Positions 50,354-63,737 of a stretch of 64,000 bases of DNA are shown piece after piece. Where the stretch lies: positions 124,001 through 188,000 of the forward strand of contig NZ_JABBXA010000011.1 in the NCBI RefSeq assembly GCF_014161445.1, given 5' to 3'. This DNA comes from Microbispora sp. H13382. Lineage in GTDB: Bacteria > Actinomycetota > Actinomycetes > Streptosporangiales > Streptosporangiaceae. The position numbers were made by a program, and so were the translations under genes. The notes beneath the pieces were generated by a model. It saw only the letters and a list, made by a program, of their open reading frames with translations, had not been told where the DNA came from and did no database searches. Positions within the stretch are counted from its first letter, which is position 1. Each line of letters starts with the position of its first letter.

Positions 50354-53300
50354 ATGACCACCACTCCAGTCACTGAGGCGAGGCGGGAATCACCTGAGGA
50401 CGTCTGTCTTCCCGATCTGCTCGACGCACAGGCCCGGACGCGCCCGGACGACACGGCGGTCGTCTGCGGAGACCTGCGGCTGACCTTCCGCGAGCTCGCG
50501 GAGGGCGGCGCGGCCCTCGGCGGGCACCTGCGGGAGCTCGGCGTGGACCTCGACGAATGTGTGGGGCTGTTCGTCGAGCCGTCGATCGACCTGATGGTCG
50601 GGGTGTGGGGCATCCTGCGGGCCGGCGGCGCCTACCTCCCGCTGTCCCCCGAATACCCGGAAGAGCGCCTCCGCTACATGATCGAGGACGCCGGCGTGCG
50701 GGTCGTCGTCACGCAGGACGAGCTCGCGGCCAGGCTGACCGAGCTGGCGCCCGCCGGGACGAGGATCGTCACCCTGAAGGACGCGGCGCGGTCCGCGGGC
50801 TCGCCCGAGGGCGACCGTCACCCGGGCCTGCGGCCGGGCAACCTCGCGTACGTCATCTACACCTCCGGCAGCACCGGCAAGCCGAAGGGGGTGATGATCG
50901 AGCACCGCAGCATCGTCAGCCAGATGCGGTGGCTGCGGGCCGGCTACGGGATCGGCCACGACAAGATCGTCCTGCAGAAGACGCCGATGAGCTTCGACGC
51001 GGCGCAGTGGGAGATCCTCGCGCCGGTCTGCGGCTCGGTGGTCGTCGTGGGCCCGCCGGGGGTCTACCGGGACGCCGAGCGGCTGATCGACGTCATCAGG
51101 ACGCACGACGTCACCACGCTGCAGTGCGTCCCGACGCTGCTGACGGCGCTCGTGGACACCGAGGAGCTGCACGGCTGCACGTCGCTGACGCAGGTCTTCA
51201 CCGGCGGCGAGGTCCTGTCCAAGACGCTGGCGACGAGCTTCTTCGACACCCTGCCGGGGTGCGAGCTGGTCAACCTGTACGGCCCCACCGAATGCACGAT
51301 CAACTCCTCGGCGTACACCGTGGACCCGGCGGCCGTCGGCGAGGGCCCGCACGCGATCTCGATCGGCGCGCCGGTCGACCACACCGGCTACCACATCCTC
51401 GACCTCGGCGGATCGCCGGTGGCCGTCGGAGAGATCGGCGAGCTGTTCATCGGCGGCGTCCAGGTCGCCCGCGGCTACCTGCACCGGCCCGAGTTGACCG
51501 CGGAGCGGTTCGTGGACAACCCGTTCGGCGAGGGCCGGTTGTTCAGGACCGGCGACCTCGCGTACTGGAACGCCGACGGCACCGTCCAGTTCGTCGGCCG
51601 CGCGGACAACCAGATCAAGCTTCGGGGGTTCCGGGTCGAGCTGGACGAGATCAAGCTGGCGATCGAGACCCACGACTGGGTCAAGCACGCCGCGGTCATC
51701 GTCAAGGACGACCCGCGCACCGGATTCCAGAACCTGATCGCCTGCGTCGAGCTGAATCCCAAGGAAGCGGCGCTGATGGACCAGGGCAACCACGGCGCGC
51801 ACCACCAGTCCAAGGCGAGCAGGCTCCAGGTCAGGGCGCAGCTGTCCAACCCCGGAGTCCGGGACGCCGCGGAGCTCGACGGCAGGCCGGTCGTCGACCT
51901 GCCGGGCAGGCAGGCGACCGCGCGGCAACGCGCGCTGGCGTTCGCCCGCAAGACCTACCGGTTCTACGAGGGCGGGGAGGTCGGCCGGGGCGACATCCTG
52001 AAACTGCTGGCCAGGCGGGCCGAGGACGCGGACTCCCGCGGCCTGGACACCCTCGGCCTGGCGGAGCTCGGCGAGATCCTGCGGCACTTCGGCCAGCACA
52101 TCAGCGAGGAGCGCCTGCTGCCGAAGTACGCGTACGCCTCGCCCGGGGCGTTGTACGCGACCCAGATGTACCTCGAGATCACCGGGATGGACGGCCTCCG
52201 GCCGGGCTACTACTACCACCACCCGGTGCACCACCGGCTCGTGCTGATCGGGCCGGCCGCCGGGGGGCCGGAGCCTCGGGTGAAGGTGCACTTCATCGGT
52301 AAGAAGCGGGCGATAGAACCGGTCTACAAGAACAACATCCGCGAGGTCCTGGAGATCGAGACCGGCCACATGGTCGGCCTGTTCGAGGAGGTGCTGCCCG
52401 GGCACGGCCTGGACATCAGAGCCCTGGAGTACGCGCCGGCCACGAAGGACCACCTGGACTGCGCCGACGAGGACCACTACCTCGGCACGTTCGAGCTGGT
52501 CCCGTACGCGGGGCCGCGCCCGGACGAGGTCGACCTCTACGTCCAGGCGCATCCCGGCAGGGTCCCCGACCTGCGGGCGGGCCAGTACGCCTACGAGAAC
52601 GGGCGGCTGCGCCTGATCTCGGACGAGCTCATCCTCAAGAAGCAGGTCATCGCGATCAACCAGCAGGTCTACGACCGGGCTTCCATCGGCGTCTCGGTGG
52701 TCAGCAGGAACGACGAGGACTGGCTGCGCTACATCGACCTGGGCCGCACGCTGCAGCACCTGTCGATGAACGACGTCAACATCGGGTTCATGTCGTCCGG
52801 ATACAGCTCGAAGTCCGGCGACGCCCTGCCCTCGGCGCGCCGGATCGACGGCATCCTGCGCTCGCTCGGCCGGCCCACGGGCCCGTCCTACTTCTTCATC
52901 GGCGGGCGCGTGAGCGACGAACAGCGGTTGAGCGAGGGGATGAAGGAGGACCTGGTCCACATGAAGGGACCGGCGGAGATGATCAGGGACGACCTGATCA
53001 ACTTCCTGCCGGACTACATGATCCCGAACAAGGTCGTCGTGCTGGACCGGCTCCCGTTCACGGCGAACGGGAAGATCGACGTCAAGGCGCTGGCCGCGTC
53101 TGGCGCGACGAACGTGGACAACGACGACCGGCCGTACGTCGCGCCGCGGACCGTCACCGAACGCCGGATCGCCGAACTGTGGAAGAAGGCGATGAAGCGG
53201 GAGACCGTCTCGGTGGAGGACGACTTCTTCGCCTCCGGCGGGAACTCGCTCATCGCCGTCGGGCTGATCAACAAGATCAACCGGGAGTTCTGCGGCTCGC

Positions 53301-54442
53301 TGCCCCTCCAGGTGCTGTTCGAGTGCCCCACGATCGAGAAGCTCGCCCGCCGGGTCGACGGACGCGACTCCGAGGCGTGCTCCCGGCTGGTGCCGCTGCA
53401 GCGGGAGGGCGCGGGCCGGCCGGTCTACTGCTGGCCCGGCCTCGGCGGATACACGATGAACCTGCGCACGCTGGCCGCCAGGATGGGCGCCGCCCGGCCC
53501 TTCTACGGCGTCCAGGCGTACGGGATCAACCCCGAGGAGGTCCCGTACGCGACCATCGGCGAGATGGCGGCCGAGGACGTCAAGGCGATCCGGCGGGTGC
53601 AGCCGTCCGGGCCGTACACGCTGTGGGGATACTCCTTCGGCGCGCGCGTCGCGTTCGAGGCCGCCTACCAGCTGGAGCAGGCCGGCGAGCGGGTGGAGCA
53701 CCTGTTCCTGATCGCGCCGGGCTCGCCGAAGGTCCGCTCGGCGGCCACGCCCGGGCACGAGCGCGAGGCCGGCTTCGGCAACGAGGCGTACGTGACGATC
53801 CTGTTCTCGGTCTTCGCGGGCACGATCGCCGGGCCGCTGCTGGAGCGGTGCCTGGCCGAGGCCGTGGACGAGGAGAGCTTCGCGGCCTTCGTCCACCGCA
53901 ACTTCCCCGACCTGGACATCGACCTGGTGCGCCGGATCATGCGGGTGGTGGGCGAGACCTTCGAGTTCAGTTACACCTTCCGGGAGCTGGCCCGCCGGCG
54001 GATCGACGCGCCGATCACCATCTTCAAGGCCAGGGGCGACGACTACTCGTTCCTGGAGAACAGCAGCGGCTATTCGGCGACGCCCCCGGTCGTCGTCGAT
54101 CTGGAAGCCGATCACTACGGCCTGCTCAAGGAACCGGACATCGACGAGCTGGCCGGAGCCATCGGGGATCGTCTCGGGACCCACCGTAAGGAGATCATCA
54201 TGCCGCACGTCAGCATCAAGCACTTCCCCGTCCCCCTCACCGAGCAGCAGCACTCCGACCTGGTCGCGGCCGTGACCAAGGCGATGACGAGCGCCTTCGG
54301 ATGCGAGGAGGGCTCGGTGTCGATCATCCTGGAGCCGGTCGCGCAGGAGCTGTGGGACGAGAAGGTCTACATCCCGGAGATCCTCAACCAGAAGCACAAA
54401 CTGAACAAGCTGCCGAACTACGGCCCCGCCGCGACGAACTGA
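50354..54442 (+). CDS. indC: Indigoidine-synthetase-type NRPS (A-Ox-T-TE) with C-terminal tautomerase domain
   Basis: 1362 aa; GGGGGAGGAA precedes ATG. Adenylation domain: [12 protein letters not shown] (about 169), NLYGPTE (about 305), [15 protein letters not shown] (about 415). A flavin oxidase (McbC/nitroreductase-like) is inserted at about 455-840 between A8 and A10, as in IndC/BpsA; A10 is NGKIDVKAL (about 905). Carrier domain FFASGGNSL (Ser about 964). Thioesterase [10 protein letters not shown] (about 1089) and DHYGLLKEP His. BpsA-type enzymes cyclise and oxidise L-Gln and dimerise it to the blue pigment indigoidine. The last 80 residues ([10 protein letters not shown]...) are a 4-oxalocrotonate tautomerase domain joined without a stop, with its own ribosome site. 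Needs a phosphopantetheinyl transferase from elsewhere. Confidence 0.93.
54188..54202 (+). promoter_or_regulatory. Internal ribosome site and ATG for a free tautomerase
   Basis: AAGGAG (54188-54193), 6-nt spacer, ATG 54200 inside the NRPS frame. Translation here would give an 80-aa tautomerase with an N-terminal Pro after Met removal, which the family's chemistry requires. Confidence 0.55.
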
Positions 54443-54452
54443 GGGGCCGACG

Positions 54453-55394
54453 ATGACTAGGGAGCACGGCCGCGTCCCGCTGGTCTACAGCGAGGAGGTC
54501 GCGGACGCCCTCGCCGAGGGCCGGCCGGTGGTGGCGCTGGAGTCGAACGTCATCACCCACGGCCTGCCCTATCCGGACAACGCCGCCACCGCGCGGAAGG
54601 TCGAGGACGCGGTCCGCGCCGGGGGCGCGGTCCCGGCCACGATCTGCGTCGAGGGCGGCCGGTTCAGGGTCGGCATGACGGACGAGGACGTCGAGCGGTT
54701 CGCCTCGACCCCCGGCATCCCCAAGGTCAGCAGCCGGGACCTGCCGGTGATCCTCGCCCAGGGCGGGCTCGGCGCGCTGACGGTGGCCAGCTCGGTGGTG
54801 GCGGCCGAACTGGCCGGCATCCCGTTCTTCTCGTCGGCCGGCATCGGCGGCGTGCACCGGGGCGCGGAGAAGACGATGGACGTCTCCTCCGACCTGATCC
54901 AGTTCACCCGGTCGAAGGTGGCGGTCGTCTGCGCGGGGGCCAAGAGCATCCTCGACCTGGGCCTGACCATGGAGTTTCTGGAGACCCACTGCGTGCCGGT
55001 GGTGTCGTACCGGTCGGACGACTTCCCCGCGTTCTACTGCGTGTCCAGCGGCATCCGCAGCCCGCAGCGGCTGGACGACGAGCGGGTGATCGCGCGGGCG
55101 GTGGAGAACCACTGGGCGCTGGGCAACCACAGCTCCTTCCTGATCACCACACCGGCGCGGGAGGAGGACGCGATCGACGCGTCCGAGGTGGACGCCGCCA
55201 TCGCCGGCGCGATGGCCGCGGCCGAGCGGGACGGCGTCCGCGGCAACGCGATCACGAAGTACCTCATGCGCGCCGTGGACGCGGCCACCGAGGGCCGGTC
55301 GTCCAGGGCGAACATGTCCGTGCTCGTCAGCACGGCCGAGGTCGGCGGCCGGCTGGCCGCGGCCCACGCGCGGTATCTGCGGGAGGCCGCCTGA
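54453..55394 (+). CDS. indA: Pseudouridine-5'-phosphate glycosidase-like enzyme (IndA/PsuG family)
   Basis: 313 aa. [63 protein letters not shown] (Schiff-base Lys), [14 protein letters not shown] and RGNAITKYL match PsuG and its biosynthetic relatives IndA, AlnA and MinB, which form or break C-C bonds between ribose 5-phosphate and a base. Its place 10 bp after the NRPS gene implies it couples ribose 5-phosphate to the cyclic Gln product, giving a C-nucleoside 5'-phosphate. The HAD phosphatase usually next to it is absent. Confidence 0.92.
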
Positions 55395-55603: not shown

Positions 55604-57550
55604 ATGACGACCCAGACTCCTGGAACCGGGAGTCCCACCAGGCGGCGCCCCGGCCGCCGGCTGATCGGCCGGGCGTTCACGGCCGGTCTCGTGCTGACGA
55701 CCGCCGTCATGACGGCGGGAGCGACGGCCGCCACCGCCGCACCGGCCCATGGAGACCACGGCAACCACGGCGACCACGGAAACCCGGGAGCCGTCGACCT
55801 CGGCCCGAACGTCACCGTCTTCGACCCGAGCATGCCCGTCGACCAGATCCAGGCGACCCTGGACGCGGCGCACACCGCCCAGGTCGACAACGAGATGGGC
55901 ACCGAGCGCCACGCCTACCTCTTCAAGCCCGGCACGTACGGCACCGCCGAGCGCCCGCTCCAGATCAAGGTCGGCTACTACACGGAGATCGCGGGTCTGG
56001 GCGCATCGCCCACCGACGTCGTCATCAACGGCAAGGTCGAGGTCTACAACCGCTGCCTGGAGAACAACGGCACCGGCAACTGCCTCGCGCTCGTCAACTT
56101 CTGGCGCACGCTGTCGAACCTTTCCATCAACGTCAACGCGGCGGGCCAGGACGGCTGCCGCCAGTCGGCGAACTTCTGGGCCGTCTCCCAGGCGGTCTCC
56201 ATGCGCCGCCTCAACGTCACCGGCGGCACCCTGTCGCTGATGGACTACTGCACCGCCGGCCCGCAGTACGCCAGCGGCGGCTTCATCGCCGACTCCCGGC
56301 TGCCGTCCGTCACGAACGGCTCCCAGCAGCAGTGGCTGACCCGCAACACCGAGGTCGCCGGGTGGTCCAACGCCGTGTGGAACCAGGTCTTCTCGGGCGT
56401 CGTCGGCGCGCCGGACGAGTCCGGCTTCCCGGACCCGCCCTACACCACGATCGAGAACACCCCCGTCAGCCGGGAGAAGCCCTACCTGTTCACCGACGCG
56501 CAGGGCGGGTTCGGCGTCCGCGTGCCGGACGCCAGGAAGAACACGCGCGGCGTCTCGTGGGCCGGCGGCATGACGCCGGGCCGTACGGTGCCGTTGTCCG
56601 ACTTCTTCGTCGCGAAGCCGTCCGACTCCGTGCAGGCCATCAACAGCCAGCTCGCGCGCGGCAAGAACCTGCTGCTCACGCCGGGCGTGTACGACATCGC
56701 GCGGAGCATCGAGGTCAAGCGGCCCGGCACGGTGGTCCTCGGCATCGGGCACGCCACGCTCACCGCCGTACGCGGTGCGGTCCCGATCGAGGTCGCCGAC
56801 GTCCCCGGCGTGGTCGTGGCCGGGGTCACCGTCGACGCGGGCACGCAGAAGTCCCCGGTCCTGCTGCGGGTGGGCAAGGAGCACGGCGTGCGGCTTGGCA
56901 GCGAGCACGGCGGCCACCGGACGTCGGCGGACGACCCGACGACCCTGTCCGACGTGTACTTCCGGGTCGGCGGCCCGCACGTCGGCAAGACCGAGACCGC
57001 TCTCGAGGTCAACAGCGACGACGTGCTCATCGACCACACCTGGGTGTGGCGCGCCGACCACGGCGTCGAGGGCTTCACCGACACGCAGCGCTGGAACACC
57101 AACATCGGCCGGTACGGCGCCGTCATCAACGGCGACCGGGTGACGGCGACCGGCCTGTTCGTCGAGCACTTCCAGCGCTACAACACGGTCTGGAACGGCG
57201 AGGACGGCACGACGATCCTCTACCAGAACGAGCTGCCGTACGACCCGCCCACCCAGGCCGACTGGATGAACGGCAAGGTCGAGGGCTACGCCGGCTACAA
57301 GGTCGGCGACCGGGTGAAGAGGCACAGCCTCTACGGCGCGGGCGTCTACGTCTTCAACCAGAACAACCCGCAGATCCACACCGAGAACGGCTTCGAGGTC
57401 CCGCAGACCCCGGGCGTGAAGTTGCACCACATCATGACGGTCAACCTCAGCGCCGGGACGATCGACCACGTCGTCAACGGCGTCGGCGACGCGGCCGACA
57501 CGACCAAGGTCGGGGTGCCGCAGTACATCGCGGACTACCCCGCCCGGTAG
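55604..57550 (+). CDS. Secreted right-handed beta-helix protein
   Basis: 648 aa. Signal peptide with twin Arg and AxA end (about residue 46), a His/Gly/Asp-rich stretch (HGDHGNHGDHGN) and then beta-helical sequence (VVINGKVEVYNRCLE, NLLLTPGVYDIARSIEV, VLGIGHATLTAV, TALEVNSDDVLIDHTWVW). Homologs in actinomycetes are often named 'adenylyl cyclase' in databases, without support in the sequence. The fold suggests polysaccharide binding or cleavage. Controlled perhaps by the palindromes just upstream. Confidence 0.82.
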   Translation: MTTQTPGTGSPTRRRPGRRLIGRAFTAGLVLTTAVMTAGATAATAAPAHGDHGNHGDHGNPGAVDLGPNVTVFDPSMPVDQIQATLDAAHTAQVDNEMGTERHAYLFKPGTYGTAERPLQIKVGYYTEIAGLGASPTDVVINGKVEVYNRCLENNGTGNCLALVNFWRTLSNLSINVNAAGQDGCRQSANFWAVSQAVSMRRLNVTGGTLSLMDYCTAGPQYASGGFIADSRLPSVTNGSQQQWLTRNTEVAGWSNAVWNQVFSGVVGAPDESGFPDPPYTTIENTPVSREKPYLFTDAQGGFGVRVPDARKNTRGVSWAGGMTPGRTVPLSDFFVAKPSDSVQAINSQLARGKNLLLTPGVYDIARSIEVKRPGTVVLGIGHATLTAVRGAVPIEVADVPGVVVAGVTVDAGTQKSPVLLRVGKEHGVRLGSEHGGHRTSADDPTTLSDVYFRVGGPHVGKTETALEVNSDDVLIDHTWVWRADHGVEGFTDTQRWNTNIGRYGAVINGDRVTATGLFVEHFQRYNTVWNGEDGTTILYQNELPYDPPTQADWMNGKVEGYAGYKVGDRVKRHSLYGAGVYVFNQNNPQIHTENGFEVPQTPGVKLHHIMTVNLSAGTIDHVVNGVGDAADTTKVGVPQYIADYPAR

Positions 57551-58021: not shown

Positions 58022-58292
58022 GTCAGCTGTACTCCTTCGCCCGCTGGGGATGAGTCCCGCCCGGCGCCGGGCCGAGCCATCGGTGGTGCGGGTCGTCGAC
58101 GTGGGTGCCGCGGTTGATCGGCATGGCGATACGTAACCGCACATATGTCCGGCCCCGCAATCCGATCGAAGACCCCGCGCCAGGTGATGTCGCGGCCATG
58201 CCGTCTCCATGCGCGGCGTCCCTAGGTTTGGCCGTGTCGCACTCACGTGCTCCCCGCCGAGGGGAGCCGTCACGAGAAGGAAGGTCGAACCG

Positions 58293-58529
58293 TTGGCATG
58301 TACTGAGCGCTGGGAGCCGATCTACAACTGCCCCAGCTACCAGACGGGCAGGCAGCTCATCCGGGTCTGCGACGGCAAGGCGAGCGTGGTCCAGACCGAG
58401 CCCTGCCACTACCCGCAGCAGACGACCTGCAACTACAGCAATGGTCCCTACGGGCCGGGCACGTACGGCCCCCCCGGCTCGGGCCCCTGCCCGCCGCCCG
58501 TCTGCCCGCCCTTCCTGCCGAACTGCTAG
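58293..58529 (+). CDS. 78-aa cysteine-rich peptide, probable substrate of the downstream redox/export genes
   Basis: TTG 58293 lies 8 bp after GAAGGAAGG (58276-58284). The product has Cys at 3, 13, 26, 38, 46, 66, 71 and 78, the last being the C-terminal residue. Residues 51-76 are Pro/Gly/Tyr-rich (PYGPGTYGPPGSGPCPPPVC). No signal peptide or membrane helix, so export needs a dedicated route such as the ABC transporter three genes on. An even Cys count fits four disulfides. Longer in-frame starts (58209) lack a ribosome site. I know no named family; the N-terminal two-thirds could be leader or core. Confidence 0.65.
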   Translation: MACTERWEPIYNCPSYQTGRQLIRVCDGKASVVQTEPCHYPQQTTCNYSNGPYGPGTYGPPGSGPCPPPVCPPFLPNC

Positions 58530-58584
58530 GTCTCCGGGTGATCCGGGCCCGACCGGTCACCCGGACCTCCTGAAGGGGACGATC

Positions 58585-58621
58585 GGGGGTGCCGCGGCTG
58601 GCGTAGAGCCGCGGCACCCCC
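58585..58621 (+). promoter_or_regulatory. Perfect 15-bp hairpin between the peptide gene and mauE-like gene
   Basis: GGGGGTGCCGCGGCT (58585-58599), 7-nt loop, AGCCGCGGCACCCCC (58607-58621). No U-tract. It would favour high peptide expression and lower expression of the enzymes downstream. Confidence 0.75.
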
Positions 58622-58641
58622 TCCCGAGAGTAGGGGTTGCC

Positions 58642-59172
58642 ATGGAGTACGTCCTGGTCGGCTGCCGGTTTCTGATCGGCGTGGTCTTCCTGGTCTCGGC
58701 GGCGGGCAAGATACGCGGCCGGGACGCGTACGCCGCCTTCCGCCGGGCCGCCGGAGAGCTGGCGCCACGGGTGCCGCCGAGGCTGCGGTCCCTCGTGCCT
58801 TCCGCGGTCGTCGCCGGTGAACTGGCCGCGGTCGTGCTGCTCGCCGTTCCGGCCACGGTGGCGGCCGGGTTCGCGCTCGCCGTGGTCCTGCTGGCGGCGT
58901 TCACCGCCGCGATCGTCGCGGCCGTGCGCGCCCGCAGGCAGGTGGCCTGCAACTGCTTCGGCACCTCCTCCACGCCGGTGGGACCGGCCCAGATCATCAG
59001 GAACACGGCGCTGCTGACCGCCTCGCTGGCCGGGGTGGTGCTCGCCGCCGGTGGCACGCCCGCGGCGCTCGAACCGGCCGGTGTCGTGGCCGCGGTGGTC
59101 GCCGCTCTGACCGGGGCCGGCCTGGTTCTGCTCACCGACGACGTCGCCGAGCTGTTCCGGCCGCTCACCTGA
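58642..59172 (+). CDS. MauE/DoxX-like membrane redox protein
   Basis: 176 aa, four membrane helices. MEYVLVGCRFLIGVVFLVSAAGK opens like MauE; the loop RRQVACNCFG carries the CxC(F)G motif conserved in MauE. MauE takes part in making the disulfide-rich methylamine dehydrogenase small subunit, and relatives act like DsbB/VKOR. No methylamine dehydrogenase is here, so the Cys-rich peptide is the likely substrate. ATG 58642 follows AGGGGTTG. Confidence 0.85.
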   Translation: MEYVLVGCRFLIGVVFLVSAAGKIRGRDAYAAFRRAAGELAPRVPPRLRSLVPSAVVAGELAAVVLLAVPATVAAGFALAVVLLAAFTAAIVAAVRARRQVACNCFGTSSTPVGPAQIIRNTALLTASLAGVVLAAGGTPAALEPAGVVAAVVAALTGAGLVLLTDDVAELFRPLT

Positions 59173-59224
59173 ACCGCCGCCGCGGGTGCCGGCGGCGCCG
59201 TCACCGTCGTAGTTAGGGGTTGTC

Positions 59225-59800
59225 GTGTCGAATATCGTGGTGGCGCTCGTCTGCGCCGCCGTCCTGGTGTGCCTGCTGAACCTCGTCTTCACCGTGGGGA
59301 TGGCCCGGCGGCTGCGTGCCCTCGGCGCGCTGCTGTCCCAGCCTGGCCCCGCATCGGACGGACATTCGTCTCCGGGTGGGTTCGGTCCCGTCATGCGCGA
59401 GTCGGGAGAGCGGCTGGGTGCGTTCAGCACCACCACGGTGGACGGCAGGCCGGTCGGCGAGGACTTCTTCGCCGGCGGCCCGGCGCTGGTGGCCGCGTTC
59501 TCCGTGGGATGCGGGGCGTGTGAGGAGCGCCTGCCGGAGTTCGTCCGGTTCGCCGAGACCTTCCCGGGAGGCAGGGAGCGGGTGCTGGCTCTCGTGGTCG
59601 GCACCGACGGCGTCGCCGAGAAGCTCGCGCGGCTGGAGCCGGTGGCCACCGTCGTGGTGGAGGGCCTCCACGGCGGGCCGCTGTGCGCGTCGCTGGGGGT
59701 CAAGGGCTATCCCGCCGTAGGGATCGTCGAACCCGGCGGAGTGGTCCGGGCATCCGGCACGCTGATGCACAACGTGACGGCCGCGCTGGAGAAGGTCTGA
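59225..59800 (+). CDS. Membrane-anchored TlpA/MauD-like thioredoxin-fold protein
   Basis: 191 aa from GTG 59225 (AGGGGTTG upstream as in the mauE-like gene). An N-terminal helix (IVVALVCAAVLVCLLNLVFT) anchors an outside thioredoxin fold with FSVGCGACEERLPEF (CGAC active site) and the cis-Pro segment VKGYPAVGIV. Functional partner of MauE-type proteins, probable disulfide oxidoreductase or isomerase. 2 bp before the ABC gene. Confidence 0.87.
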   Translation: MSNIVVALVCAAVLVCLLNLVFTVGMARRLRALGALLSQPGPASDGHSSPGGFGPVMRESGERLGAFSTTTVDGRPVGEDFFAGGPALVAAFSVGCGACEERLPEFVRFAETFPGGRERVLALVVGTDGVAEKLARLEPVATVVVEGLHGGPLCASLGVKGYPAVGIVEPGGVVRASGTLMHNVTAALEKV

Positions 59801-59802
59801 CG

Positions 59803-61638
59803 ATGCGGAAGATCCTCATTGCGCTGCGGTTGAGCTGGGAGGCCAGCCCGCTGTTCACCGCGGTGTGCGTTACGCTCACGCTGCTGACCGCGCCGGCGCC
59901 GGTCGTGACGGCCTGGCTGACCAAGCTGGTGCTGGACGAGATCACCGCCGGGGCCGGGCCCGGCGCGGTGCTCGGGAAAGGCCTGGGACTCGCCGCCGCG
60001 GGCCTGGTGACCGGCCTGATTCCGCACGTCACCGCGTACGCCTCGCAGGAGACCGAGCGGCGCGTCGGGCTCCTGGCCCAGGAACGCCTGTTCGCCGCGA
60101 CCGAGCGGTTCGTGGGCCTGGCCCGGTTCGAGGATCCCGCGTTCCTCAATCGCATGCGGATGGCCCTTCAGCACGGCGGCACCACTCCGGGTGTGGTCGT
60201 CTCCGCCGTGCTGTCGCTCGTCGGTTCCGTCGTCACCGGGCTGGGCTTCCTGGGATCACTGCTGGTGATCTCGCCCTGGATGCCGATGCTGATCCTGGCC
60301 TCGGTTCTGCCGGTGCTGTTCGTCGAGATGTGGCTCGCCCGCAGACGTGCCGCGCTGTCGTGGCGGCTGAGTCCCATCGAACGCCGGGAGATGTTCTTCC
60401 GCGATCTGCTGACCAGCACCCAGGCGGCCAAGGAGATCCGGCTGTTCGGCATCGGCGCGTACCTGCGCCGCCGCATGACCGAACAGCGGCGCCTGGCCAA
60501 CGCGGAGAACCGCCGCATGGACCACCGGCAGGTCGGCGCTCAGGGCCTGATCGGCCTCGGCGGGACGATGGTGGCGAGCGGGACGCTGCTGTGGGCCGTG
60601 CTGGCCGCCGCCGGCGGCCGGATCGGCATCGGCGACATCTCCCTGCTGGTCGCCTCGGTGGCCGGCGTGCAGAGCGCGGGCGTGTCGCTGGTGCACATCA
60701 TCGCCCAGTGTCACCGGCAGCTCCTGCTGTTCGACCACTATCTGCGGGTCGTCGCCGCCGGGCCGGACCTGCCCGTCGCCCGGCCGCCCCGGGCGATAGC
60801 ACCCCTGGCGCGCGGGATCGTCTTCCGCGACGTGTGGTTCCGCTACTCGCCCGACCATCCATGGGTGTTGCGCGGCGTCGACCTGACCATCCCGTACGGG
60901 CACACGGTGGGCGTGGTCGGCCGCAACGGCGCGGGCAAGAGCACCCTGATCAAGCTGCTGTGCCGGATGTACGACCCGGAGCGCGGCGCGATCCTGTGGG
61001 ACGGGGTGGACCTGCGCGACCTCGACCCCGCCGACCTGCGCGCCCGCATCGGCGCGGTCTTCCAGGACTACATGGAGTACGACCTGACAGCCGCCGAGAA
61101 CATCGGCCTGGGCGACCTGGAGCACCTGCGCGACCGCGAGCGCGTCACCGCCGCGGCCGACGGCGCCGGAGCCCACGAGTTCGTCAGCCGTCTGCCCCGC
61201 TCCTACGACACGCTCCTGTCCAGGGTCTTCTTCCAGGAGGACGACACCCCCGGGGACACCGCCGGGGACACCGGTGGCGCCCTCGGCGTGACCCTGTCGG
61301 GGGGCCAGTGGCAACGACTCGCCCTGGCCCGTGCGCATCTGCGGGCGGGACGCGACCTGATGATCCTCGACGAGCCCAGCTCCGGCCTGGACGCCGAGGC
61401 CGAGTACGAGATCCATCGCAGGTTGCGGCGGCACCGGGCGGGCCGTACCAACGTCCTGATCTCGCATCGGCTCAACACCGTGCGCGAGGCCGACCTGCTG
61501 GTGGTGCTGGACGAAGGAGCCGTCGTCGAGCGGGGAACCCACGAGGAGCTCACGGCACGCGGCGGCATCTACGCCGACCTGTTCTCGATGCAGGCCGAAG
61601 GCTTCCTGGATTCCCTGCCCGAGAAGGTTCACGGGTGA
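59803..61638 (+). CDS. ABC exporter, fused membrane and ATPase domains
   Basis: 611 aa from ATG 59803, 2 bp after the previous stop. Residues 1-330 hold six helices of the ABC type 1 exporter fold; the ATPase has GRNGAGKST (about 373), LSGGQWQRLALARA (about 500) and LMILDEPSSGLDAEAE. There is no C39 leader-peptidase domain. Similar half-transporters export lanthipeptides and other peptides. The operon order makes the Cys-rich peptide the natural cargo. Confidence 0.92.
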   Translation: MRKILIALRLSWEASPLFTAVCVTLTLLTAPAPVVTAWLTKLVLDEITAGAGPGAVLGKGLGLAAAGLVTGLIPHVTAYASQETERRVGLLAQERLFAATERFVGLARFEDPAFLNRMRMALQHGGTTPGVVVSAVLSLVGSVVTGLGFLGSLLVISPWMPMLILASVLPVLFVEMWLARRRAALSWRLSPIERREMFFRDLLTSTQAAKEIRLFGIGAYLRRRMTEQRRLANAENRRMDHRQVGAQGLIGLGGTMVASGTLLWAVLAAAGGRIGIGDISLLVASVAGVQSAGVSLVHIIAQCHRQLLLFDHYLRVVAAGPDLPVARPPRAIAPLARGIVFRDVWFRYSPDHPWVLRGVDLTIPYGHTVGVVGRNGAGKSTLIKLLCRMYDPERGAILWDGVDLRDLDPADLRARIGAVFQDYMEYDLTAAENIGLGDLEHLRDRERVTAAADGAGAHEFVSRLPRSYDTLLSRVFFQEDDTPGDTAGDTGGALGVTLSGGQWQRLALARAHLRAGRDLMILDEPSSGLDAEAEYEIHRRLRRHRAGRTNVLISHRLNTVREADLLVVLDEGAVVERGTHEELTARGGIYADLFSMQAEGFLDSLPEKVHG

Positions 61639-61686
61639 CCGGCACCGCTCGCTCCCGCCCTCGTGCCGCTCGTGGCCGGTGTCGCG

Positions 61687-62504: not shown

Positions 62505-63737
62505 GTGGTTCTGTCAGAAACTCTGCCCATGCCGCCGGAGGCCGGGCGCGGCCACGCGCTTGACGCCGGACACCGCGGACATGCCTTCACGTCGGTCCAT
62601 CCGGGCGACCTCGCGGAGGCCCGTACGGGCCGGCACCGGGCCGCGAAGGGCGCCGACGGCAAACGGGACCTCCCGGAGGTCGACCCCTCGCGCATGCACG
62701 TCACCGTGCTGGTCCCGGCGCACAACGAGGAAACCCAGATCGCCGAGACGATCACGTCGCTGCACGCACAGCGGCGCGGGCCCAACCGCGTCATCGTGAT
62801 CGCGGACAACTGCACCGACAGGACCGAGGACATCGCCCGCGCGCACGGCGCCGAGGTGATCAGGACGGTCGGCAACCGCCACAAGAAGGCGGGCGCCCTC
62901 AACCAGGTGCTCGAAGTCCTGCTGCCGCAGCTGGGGTCCCGGCACGCCGTGCTGGTCATGGACGCGGACTCGGCGCTCGATCCCGGTTTCATCCACCATG
63001 CCGTCCTCCGGCTGGCCACCGGCGAACTGGCCGCGGTGGGAGGCACCTTCACCGGCAAGCCGGGCGGCGGGCTGGTGGGCATGTTCCAGCGCAACGAGTA
63101 CGCGCGCTACGCCAGGGACGTGCGACGGCTGCGCGGAAAGGCGCTGGTGCTCACCGGGACGGCGACGCTGTTCCGCGCGCTCGCGCTCAAGGAGGTCGTC
63201 AGGGCGCGCCGCGGCGGCCGTCTCCCCGGCCGCGACCAGGTGTACGACGTACGTGTCCTGACCGAGGACAACGAGCTCACCCTGGCGCTGCTGCACCTAC
63301 GGTTCCGCATCCTGTGTCCCGCGGAGTGCACGCTCACCACCGAGGTCATGGAGACCTGGAGGGACCTGTTCAAGCAGCGGCTGCGGTGGAAGCGGGGGGC
63401 GCTGGAGAACCTCACCGACTACGGCTGGACGCGGGTCACGTTGCCCTACTGGGGCCGCCAGCTCCTGTCGCTGGTCGGGATCATTGTGATCTTCGCGTAC
63501 CTGGGCGCCACGGCCTGGTCGATCGCGGTCACGGGCACGCTCACCTTCCATCCGCTCTGGCTGGCGGTCACGGGCGTCTTCATGGTCGAGCGGATCGTGA
63601 CCGTACGCAGCAGGGGTGGCAGGCAGATGGCCGTCGCCGCCCTGCTGTTCGTAGAAATGATCTTCGATGTCTTCCTGCAGTTAGCACAGGCGAAAGCCTT
63701 CTGGGACGCCGCATGGCGTCGGGAAAGGAAATGGTGA
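62505..63737 (+). CDS. Family 2 membrane glycosyltransferase
   Basis: 410 aa from GTG 62505. MHVTVLVPAHNEETQIAETI, LVMDADSALDP (DxD), VLTEDNELTLALL and KQRLRWKRGALENL (QxxRW-like) are the signature of processive GT2 enzymes (cellulose/hyaluronan synthase-like, BcsA clan). C-terminal helices follow. Likely makes or transfers to an extracellular polysaccharide. Divergent from the sortase. Confidence 0.9.
   Translation: MVLSETLPMPPEAGRGHALDAGHRGHAFTSVHPGDLAEARTGRHRAAKGADGKRDLPEVDPSRMHVTVLVPAHNEETQIAETITSLHAQRRGPNRVIVIADNCTDRTEDIARAHGAEVIRTVGNRHKKAGALNQVLEVLLPQLGSRHAVLVMDADSALDPGFIHHAVLRLATGELAAVGGTFTGKPGGGLVGMFQRNEYARYARDVRRLRGKALVLTGTATLFRALALKEVVRARRGGRLPGRDQVYDVRVLTEDNELTLALLHLRFRILCPAECTLTTEVMETWRDLFKQRLRWKRGALENLTDYGWTRVTLPYWGRQLLSLVGIIVIFAYLGATAWSIAVTGTLTFHPLWLAVTGVFMVERIVTVRSRGGRQMAVAALLFVEMIFDVFLQLAQAKAFWDAAWRRERKW

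Follow-up and report, generated by a model that had tools for sequence, protein, structure and literature searches.

A probable leaderless derivative of a secreted disulfide-peptide cassette in Microbispora sp. H13382

The window analyzed here is a stretch of 64,000 nucleotides from the actinomycete Microbispora sp. H13382 (contig NZ_JABBXA010000011.1, positions 124,001 to 188,000). At 58.3–61.6 kb it contains a 78-codon open reading frame (ORF) with a TTG start that encodes eight cysteines, the final residue among them, followed by genes for a MauE-type membrane protein, a TlpA-like protein, and an ATP-binding cassette (ABC) exporter. Comparison with related loci indicates that this unit is probably a derived, leaderless copy of a cassette dedicated to making and secreting a disulfide-bonded peptide, in which intact copies encode a precursor with a leader and an S26-family peptidase that would remove it. 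The cassette, the absence of the leader, a relic of the S26 gene, and empty insertion sites in related genomes can all be read directly from the DNA.

A search of 60 genomes returned one clear homologue of the window peptide besides the window itself, in genome G008 (77%), with a further match in G021 (E = 0.009). Among 341 genomes of the family, four besides the window matched at E < 1e-5: G008, Planobispora takensis (G227), Planobispora siamensis (G226), and G186. Weaker matches in this second search were left aside except those in G112 and G183, whose regions (L082 and L083) contain neither cassette nor peptide. The G008 ORF lies at the syntenic place, is 76–77% identical to the window peptide, and has all eight cysteines. 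The precursors from P. takensis, P. siamensis, and G186 are 98–99 residues long and carry a leader such as MVRTIRSFADRLLEGLLPGTQAQA. Alignment of the window peptide to these precursors begins one residue past the AQA, and the leader found in these nearest relatives is absent from both the window and G008 peptides. The window and G008 DNA follows that of the leader-bearing genes through the untranslated region (UTR) and ribosome-binding site and then jumps to an ATGG at the old cleavage site, a pattern that an inferred 72-bp in-frame deletion from one ATGG repeat to another would explain. A longer window product starting at the ATG at 58209 was considered and rejected: the relatives do not translate the additional stretch, and it agrees with G008 only in 12 of the last 13 codons. 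An earlier note on this DNA had called the peptide signal-less. The leader is truly absent, and comparison of the loci identifies this as a derived state reached via leader deletion, a history that the note overlooked along with the S26 relic and a hairpin between the peptide and MauE genes. G008, P. takensis, P. siamensis, and G186 each have a hairpin in the equivalent position, and paired changes can be recognized in it by eye.

In P. takensis, P. siamensis, and G186, an S26 peptidase gene lies directly 3′ of the ABC gene, an assignment tested on a relative at locus L035 (PF10502, E = 1.4e-19). The window keeps ~45 bp of the 5′ end of this gene, adjoining the sortase gene, leaving the cassette without an S26 gene; S26 genes are present elsewhere in the window genome. 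The relic scores 50 against G186, 48 against P. takensis, and 46 against P. siamensis, values reached by none of 500 shuffles in each case, and 29 against L035, a value attained by 3 of 500 shuffles. As a control, sortase flanks scored 15 at three empty sites and 23, 32, and 30 in three other genomes of the genus group, which comprises 15 genomes. The idea that the relic is an old sortase flank, prompted by a 25-bp blastn match beside the G011 sortase gene (score 32; 30 in G009), was dropped given the score of the empty sites and the position of the G011 match in a stretch read as an unrelated coding gene. These empty sites are in G010, G007, and G013, where the cyclase-like and sortase genes stand ~85–110 bp apart and the intervening site has no match to the peptide, MauE, TlpA, or ABC. 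The unit therefore probably entered this site in the common ancestor of the window and G008.

The association between cassette and peptide was examined across a wider set of loci. When a MauE alignment was used to search the whole class, 55 of 394 genomes gave a match (E ≤ 1e-10). The 87 loci counted comprise 60 outside the genus, 11 from the genus, the window, three close relatives, and 12 named loci, which are those left from 18 found in a genome contig scan after six duplicates (L084, L086, L087, L090, L091, and L097) were dropped. MauE matches outside the genus that were already included were skipped (G226:C51, equal to L080; G227:C49, equal to L079; and a second match in G017:C57, inside L150), the three weakest class-wide matches (G395, G467, and G528) fall outside the survey, and the genus is represented by its 11 loci and those from the named scan rather than by all of its MauE places. 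To count as a leader peptide, an ORF had to score 11 bits or more against the leader model and have three or more cysteines beyond the matched leader. Such a peptide is present in 52 of 53 loci with MauE, TlpA, ABC, and S26 genes, in 1 of 10 loci with MauE, TlpA, and ABC genes lacking S26, and in none of 24 MauE loci outside a full cassette (Fisher p = 4e-9 for S26 versus leader, for loci that are related and a leader model to which 23 of the 52 contributed seeds). The leader is encoded in 35 of the 36 S26 cassettes from outside the genus and in 21 of the 22 of these that did not seed the model, five of the 21 being near relatives of seeded loci (L080, L089, L099, L161, and L162). As a control, 364 small ORFs from window positions 1–50,000 scored no higher than 6.4 bits against the leader model, and low scores among the loci were those of L138 (11.1) and L139 (12.1). 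Leader peptides occur upstream or downstream of the cassette genes and on either strand.

Several cassettes without S26 encode other peptides. L166, L171, L172, and L173 have 8-Cys peptides with a different N-terminal part and no AxA, and L159 carries another kind of precursor, which fits a coupling between S26 and AxA rather than an absence of peptides. In L171 (5994–6881) and L172 (5589–6530), MauE and TlpA are fused in one protein, which supports the two acting together. These results bear out the proposal that MauE, TlpA, and ABC genes travel with Cys-rich peptides. Homologues of the window peptide sit beside these genes in the Planobispora and G186 cassettes, and the G008 homologue has the eight cysteines with none of the three genes beside it.

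The relatives' leaders are ~24 residues long, with the motif L..[AG]DRLL..LVP...AxA. Their hydrophobicity is mild (the best 10-residue segment averages 0.99, with a highest value of 1.86), and we read them as unlike a typical Sec signal. Although cysteine parity played no part in peptide selection, the number of cysteines is even in all 59 peptides, with 4, 6, 8, and 10 in 2, 31, 24, and 2 peptides, respectively; with three plasmid peptides added, it is even in 62 of 62 peptides and in 35 of 35 clusters at 50% clustering. The final residue is a cysteine in 46 of the 59, and a cysteine lies no more than one residue from the end in 55. The window peptide, with its eight cysteines and C-terminal cysteine, shares this signature. 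The median substitution-rate ratio omega is 0.47 for cores (39 pairs) versus 0.22 for leaders (38 pairs), as expected for bioactive cores.

Cassettes were found in Streptosporangiaceae, in Streptomyces, and in one Corallococcus: in the myxobacterium Corallococcus sicarius, the cassette is complete and is accompanied by a leader peptide with eight cysteines (L095). The window genome has four, its own and L041, L042, and L043. Nineteen plasmid records matched, all from Streptomyces, and in the two examined, leader peptides accompany genes in the same order; in one, the S. clavuligerus plasmid pF1D1A, the MauE, ABC, and S26 genes are preceded by two leader peptides whose annotation is merely hypothetical protein (L231, 2512–3004). 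A scan of viral contigs for MauE gave no relatives among 25 pattern matches. At L159 (3632–7900), the MauE-TlpA-ABC genes lie beside an ATP-grasp-like gene and a graspetide-like precursor with three cysteines, as labeled by eye, and may be a module borrowed by another peptide class. A BTAD regulator motif near the cassettes was dropped as a candidate feature (5 of 62 versus 1 of 24), the pattern being clearly insensitive.

From these comparisons, a mechanism can be proposed. In intact copies, the precursor would be synthesized with its ~24-residue leader ending in AxA, recognized by the ABC exporter, and carried outside. There, MauE would act as a membrane oxidant that holds the TlpA-like thiol protein oxidized, the TlpA-like protein would pair the even set of cysteines into disulfides, and the S26 peptidase would cleave past the AxA. 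The earlier note had the peptide folding outside and then being exported; export should come first. In the window lineage, the unit would have been inserted between the polyketide-cyclase-like and sortase genes, the S26 gene truncated, and the leader deleted, with translation now beginning at the former cleavage site. Because cores evolve fast, genomes can hold several cassettes, plasmids carry them, and their presence is patchy, our guess is that the peptides serve an antagonistic, bacteriocin-like purpose.

The MauE peptide module is not wholly undescribed, and in this the earlier note went too far. The accessible text on decRiPPter reports three Streptomyces candidate families with mauE, one of them also with mauD, and predicted precursors with at least eight cysteines (PMC7794033). 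These families are likely identical with the one described here, and the same portion of that source describes no leader, AxA, even cysteine number, S26 coupling, or leaderless forms. Beyond that article, a literature search found no paper on the peptide family. The closest working parallel is sublancin, with SunT and BdbA/BdbB. In the excerpted account of the glycocins (sunA-sunT-bdbA-bdbB, and palA-palT-paldbA-paldbB for pallidocin), a small Cys-containing precursor with a leader is accompanied by an ABC exporter and by two proteins, one thioredoxin-like and the other its DsbB-like membrane partner, to which disulfide formation might be due (PMC6405829). Likened by gene content, the present cassette differs in having MauE in place of a DsbB-type protein and S26 in place of an exporter peptidase domain. 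Glycocins also carry an S- or O-glycosyltransferase, whereas none common to the cassettes was noticed, in what was not a systematic search. None is found among the four window genes at 58.3–61.6 kb, and the family 2 glycosyltransferase gene at 62505–63737 has an orthologue that also flanks cassette-free sites.

Actifensin and actinomycesin, likened here by description, likewise have a leader ahead of a short mature peptide (held by three disulfides in the case of actifensin), nearby ABC genes, and actinobacterial and myxobacterial hosts, according to the available sections of the two reports (PMC6989792, PMC8819291). Unlike the cassette, the actifensin locus is described with multiple ABC genes and a protease of the subtilisin type, in a text where the words "thioredoxin" and "peptidase" do not occur, and the leader is cleaved mostly at an acidic residue rather than after AxA. 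Neither Pfam nor NCBIfam matched the window peptide and the given relatives over cut-off (nine peptides in the Pfam run and ten in the NCBIfam run). The most relevant weak match was that of the L035 peptide to CefA, a RiPP (ribosomally synthesized and post-translationally modified peptide) with a cysteine at every fifth position (NF038108; E = 0.042, 13.7 bits versus a cut-off of 30), and the other nine peptides did not match CefA. The window MauE belongs to the same family as the MauE of MauE/MauD, which take part in methylamine dehydrogenase maturation (PF07291, E = 2.8e-24, 86.3 bits versus a Pfam cut-off of 27). In contrast to that system, the substrates here are apparently small exported peptides. 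Methylamine dehydrogenase had been reported as absent, and its light chain (PF02975) indeed has no match in the window's own genome, a weak result since 14 control genomes are equally silent.

Some observations weigh against the reading of the window as part of a dedicated disulfide-peptide system. The window TlpA-like protein falls under the Pfam cut-off for PF00578 (AhpC-TSA; E = 0.0079, 16.6 bits versus 26), and its putative fold draws its support from gene position and from the CxAC motif, common to all six sequences compared (the window and five relatives). The AlphaFold model of MauE is confident (predicted local distance difference test score, pLDDT, 89), yet Foldseek gave no match to it in the PDB at E ≤ 0.001, and the redox role of MauE therefore rests on family knowledge. 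The cassette counts are not independent, and L153, in which the TlpA gene is apparently truncated, is the lone S26 cassette without a leader peptide. The literature search found no characterized member of the family and no biochemical data on it. One alternative, which we consider improbable, is that the peptides are secreted chelators of metals such as copper or zinc, with TlpA and MauE keeping their thiols reduced for loading. An even number of cysteines also suits metal sites, and TlpA-type proteins can act as reductants. However, oxidation is favored for extracellular products, the C-terminal cysteine and varied spacing fit disulfides, and no His- or Met-rich pattern is evident by eye in the listed cores. 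It is very unlikely that MauE, TlpA, and ABC serve some other substrate with the adjacent Cys-rich ORFs as bystanders: the gene neighborhood at L159 and the lone peptide of G008 would suit such an arrangement, but the near-constant leader peptide of S26 cassettes, at varying positions and on either strand, and its absence from MauE loci outside the full cassette argue against it.

Within the disulfide-peptide reading, the sequence evidence is near evenly divided on whether the window copy still works. The cassette in the window departs from the usual form: the leader and S26 are lost, and the leaderless peptide of G008 has no MauE, TlpA, or ABC gene beside it. At slightly under an even chance, the window copy is a decaying relic in which peptide export ended after the loss of S26 and the leader, a possibility that concerns function and leaves the nature of the cassette as described. 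Several findings fit decay and count against a functional copy. Between the window and G008, the peptide omega is 0.80 (0.38–1.83), indistinguishable from 1, so that purifying selection cannot be discerned; the start codon, ATG in G008, is TTG in the window; and S26 is reduced to a remnant. G008 has a similar S26 scar and has lost MauE, TlpA, and ABC from the locus by deletion; the hairpin and the ribosome site of MauE are still in place. The TlpA omega is 0.43–0.61 on the window branch versus 0.27–0.38 on sister branches, which hints at relaxation. We count as comparable erosion the state of Planomonospora parontospora, where MauE is the only cassette gene in 14.5 kb (L085, 7001–7531), with UTR-like and hairpin-like sequence upstream and no peptide.

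Against decay, the ABC omega on the window branch (0.16–0.22) is under that of its sister branches (0.29–0.42), and the UTR and hairpin are retained. The peptide ORF is intact in both genomes, and the 18 residues changed between them spare all eight cysteines, a weak point with a chance probability of 0.11. The high omega of the window peptide is not telling alone because the cores of intact members often reach similar values. The MauE omega is uninformative (0.64–0.78 versus 0.44–1.98), and of the neighboring genes compared between the window and G008, six have omega values of 0.12–0.47 and a seventh has no replacement change. More tentatively, and in our estimate unlikely as a whole, the leader and its peptidase were lost together in the G008/window lineage while the exporter stayed under purifying selection, the exporter or MauE/TlpA handles the bare core, and the locus belongs to a large uncharacterized, mostly actinobacterial class of secreted, disulfide-locked peptides served by a dedicated exporter, leader peptidase, and pair of oxidation proteins.

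In the window, MauE, TlpA-like, and ABC genes stand together (Table 1), separated from the peptide gene and from one another by 112, 52, and 2 bp. The layout in the earlier note agrees with this, and the 78-residue ORF with its ribosome site is borne out by its coordinates, by the GAAGGAAGG upstream of it, and by the G008 homologue. The ATPase domain of the ABC protein exceeds its Pfam cut-off, the match to ABC_membrane is sub-threshold (18.4 versus 28 bits), and the Pfam matches of the protein include no C39 peptidase, as the note had also said, so it does not classify as a double-glycine exporter. A sequence search of the PDB gave nothing significant for the window peptide or MauE, and the model of the peptide is poor (pLDDT 64), with residues 1–40 alone at ~72–87. 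Upstream, a nonribosomal peptide synthetase gene with adenylation, carrier, and thioesterase domains, and with a C-terminal tautomerase match that falls barely short of the threshold, precedes an Indigoidine_A gene; this is perhaps an indigoidine-type cluster (50354–55394). A 648-residue protein without a Pfam match, probably secreted, is encoded at 55604–57550. A class F sortase gene (NCBIfam NF033748; 61687–62364, minus strand) adjoins the cassette, and its orthologue lies beside the empty site in three genomes of the genus.

Table 1. Coordinates of the peptide locus in the window.
Feature	Position	Strand	Remarks
Ribosome-binding site GAAGGAAGG	58276..58284	+	8 nt 5′ of TTG; UTR resembles that of leader-bearing relatives
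78-residue, 8-Cys leaderless peptide	58293..58529	+	Matches mature part of the 98–99-residue Planobispora/G186 precursors
Hairpin in peptide–MauE interval, 15-bp stem	58585..58621	+	
MauE-type membrane protein, CxCFG	58642..59172	+	
TlpA-like protein, N-terminal membrane anchor (by eye), CGAC	59225..59800	+	
ABC exporter, fused permease/ATPase	59803..61638	+	ABC_tran, E = 3.7e-28
Relic of S26 signal peptidase gene, 5′ end	61642..61686	+	Ends beside sortase gene

These comparisons replace an isolated guess about one locus with a family that can be defined and searched for by its leader motif, and whose signature is an even number of cysteines, a C-terminal cysteine, and S26 in the cassette. The family reaches a large plasmid of S. 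clavuligerus, a species cultured in the laboratory. The comparisons suggest that MauE can serve as an oxidant for secreted peptides, beyond methylamine dehydrogenase alone. The loss of both leader and leader peptidase in one lineage provides a natural test of exporter recognition. The cassette type is recurrent and largely unstudied in bacteria, and it appears to make, export, and disulfide-lock small Cys-rich peptides.

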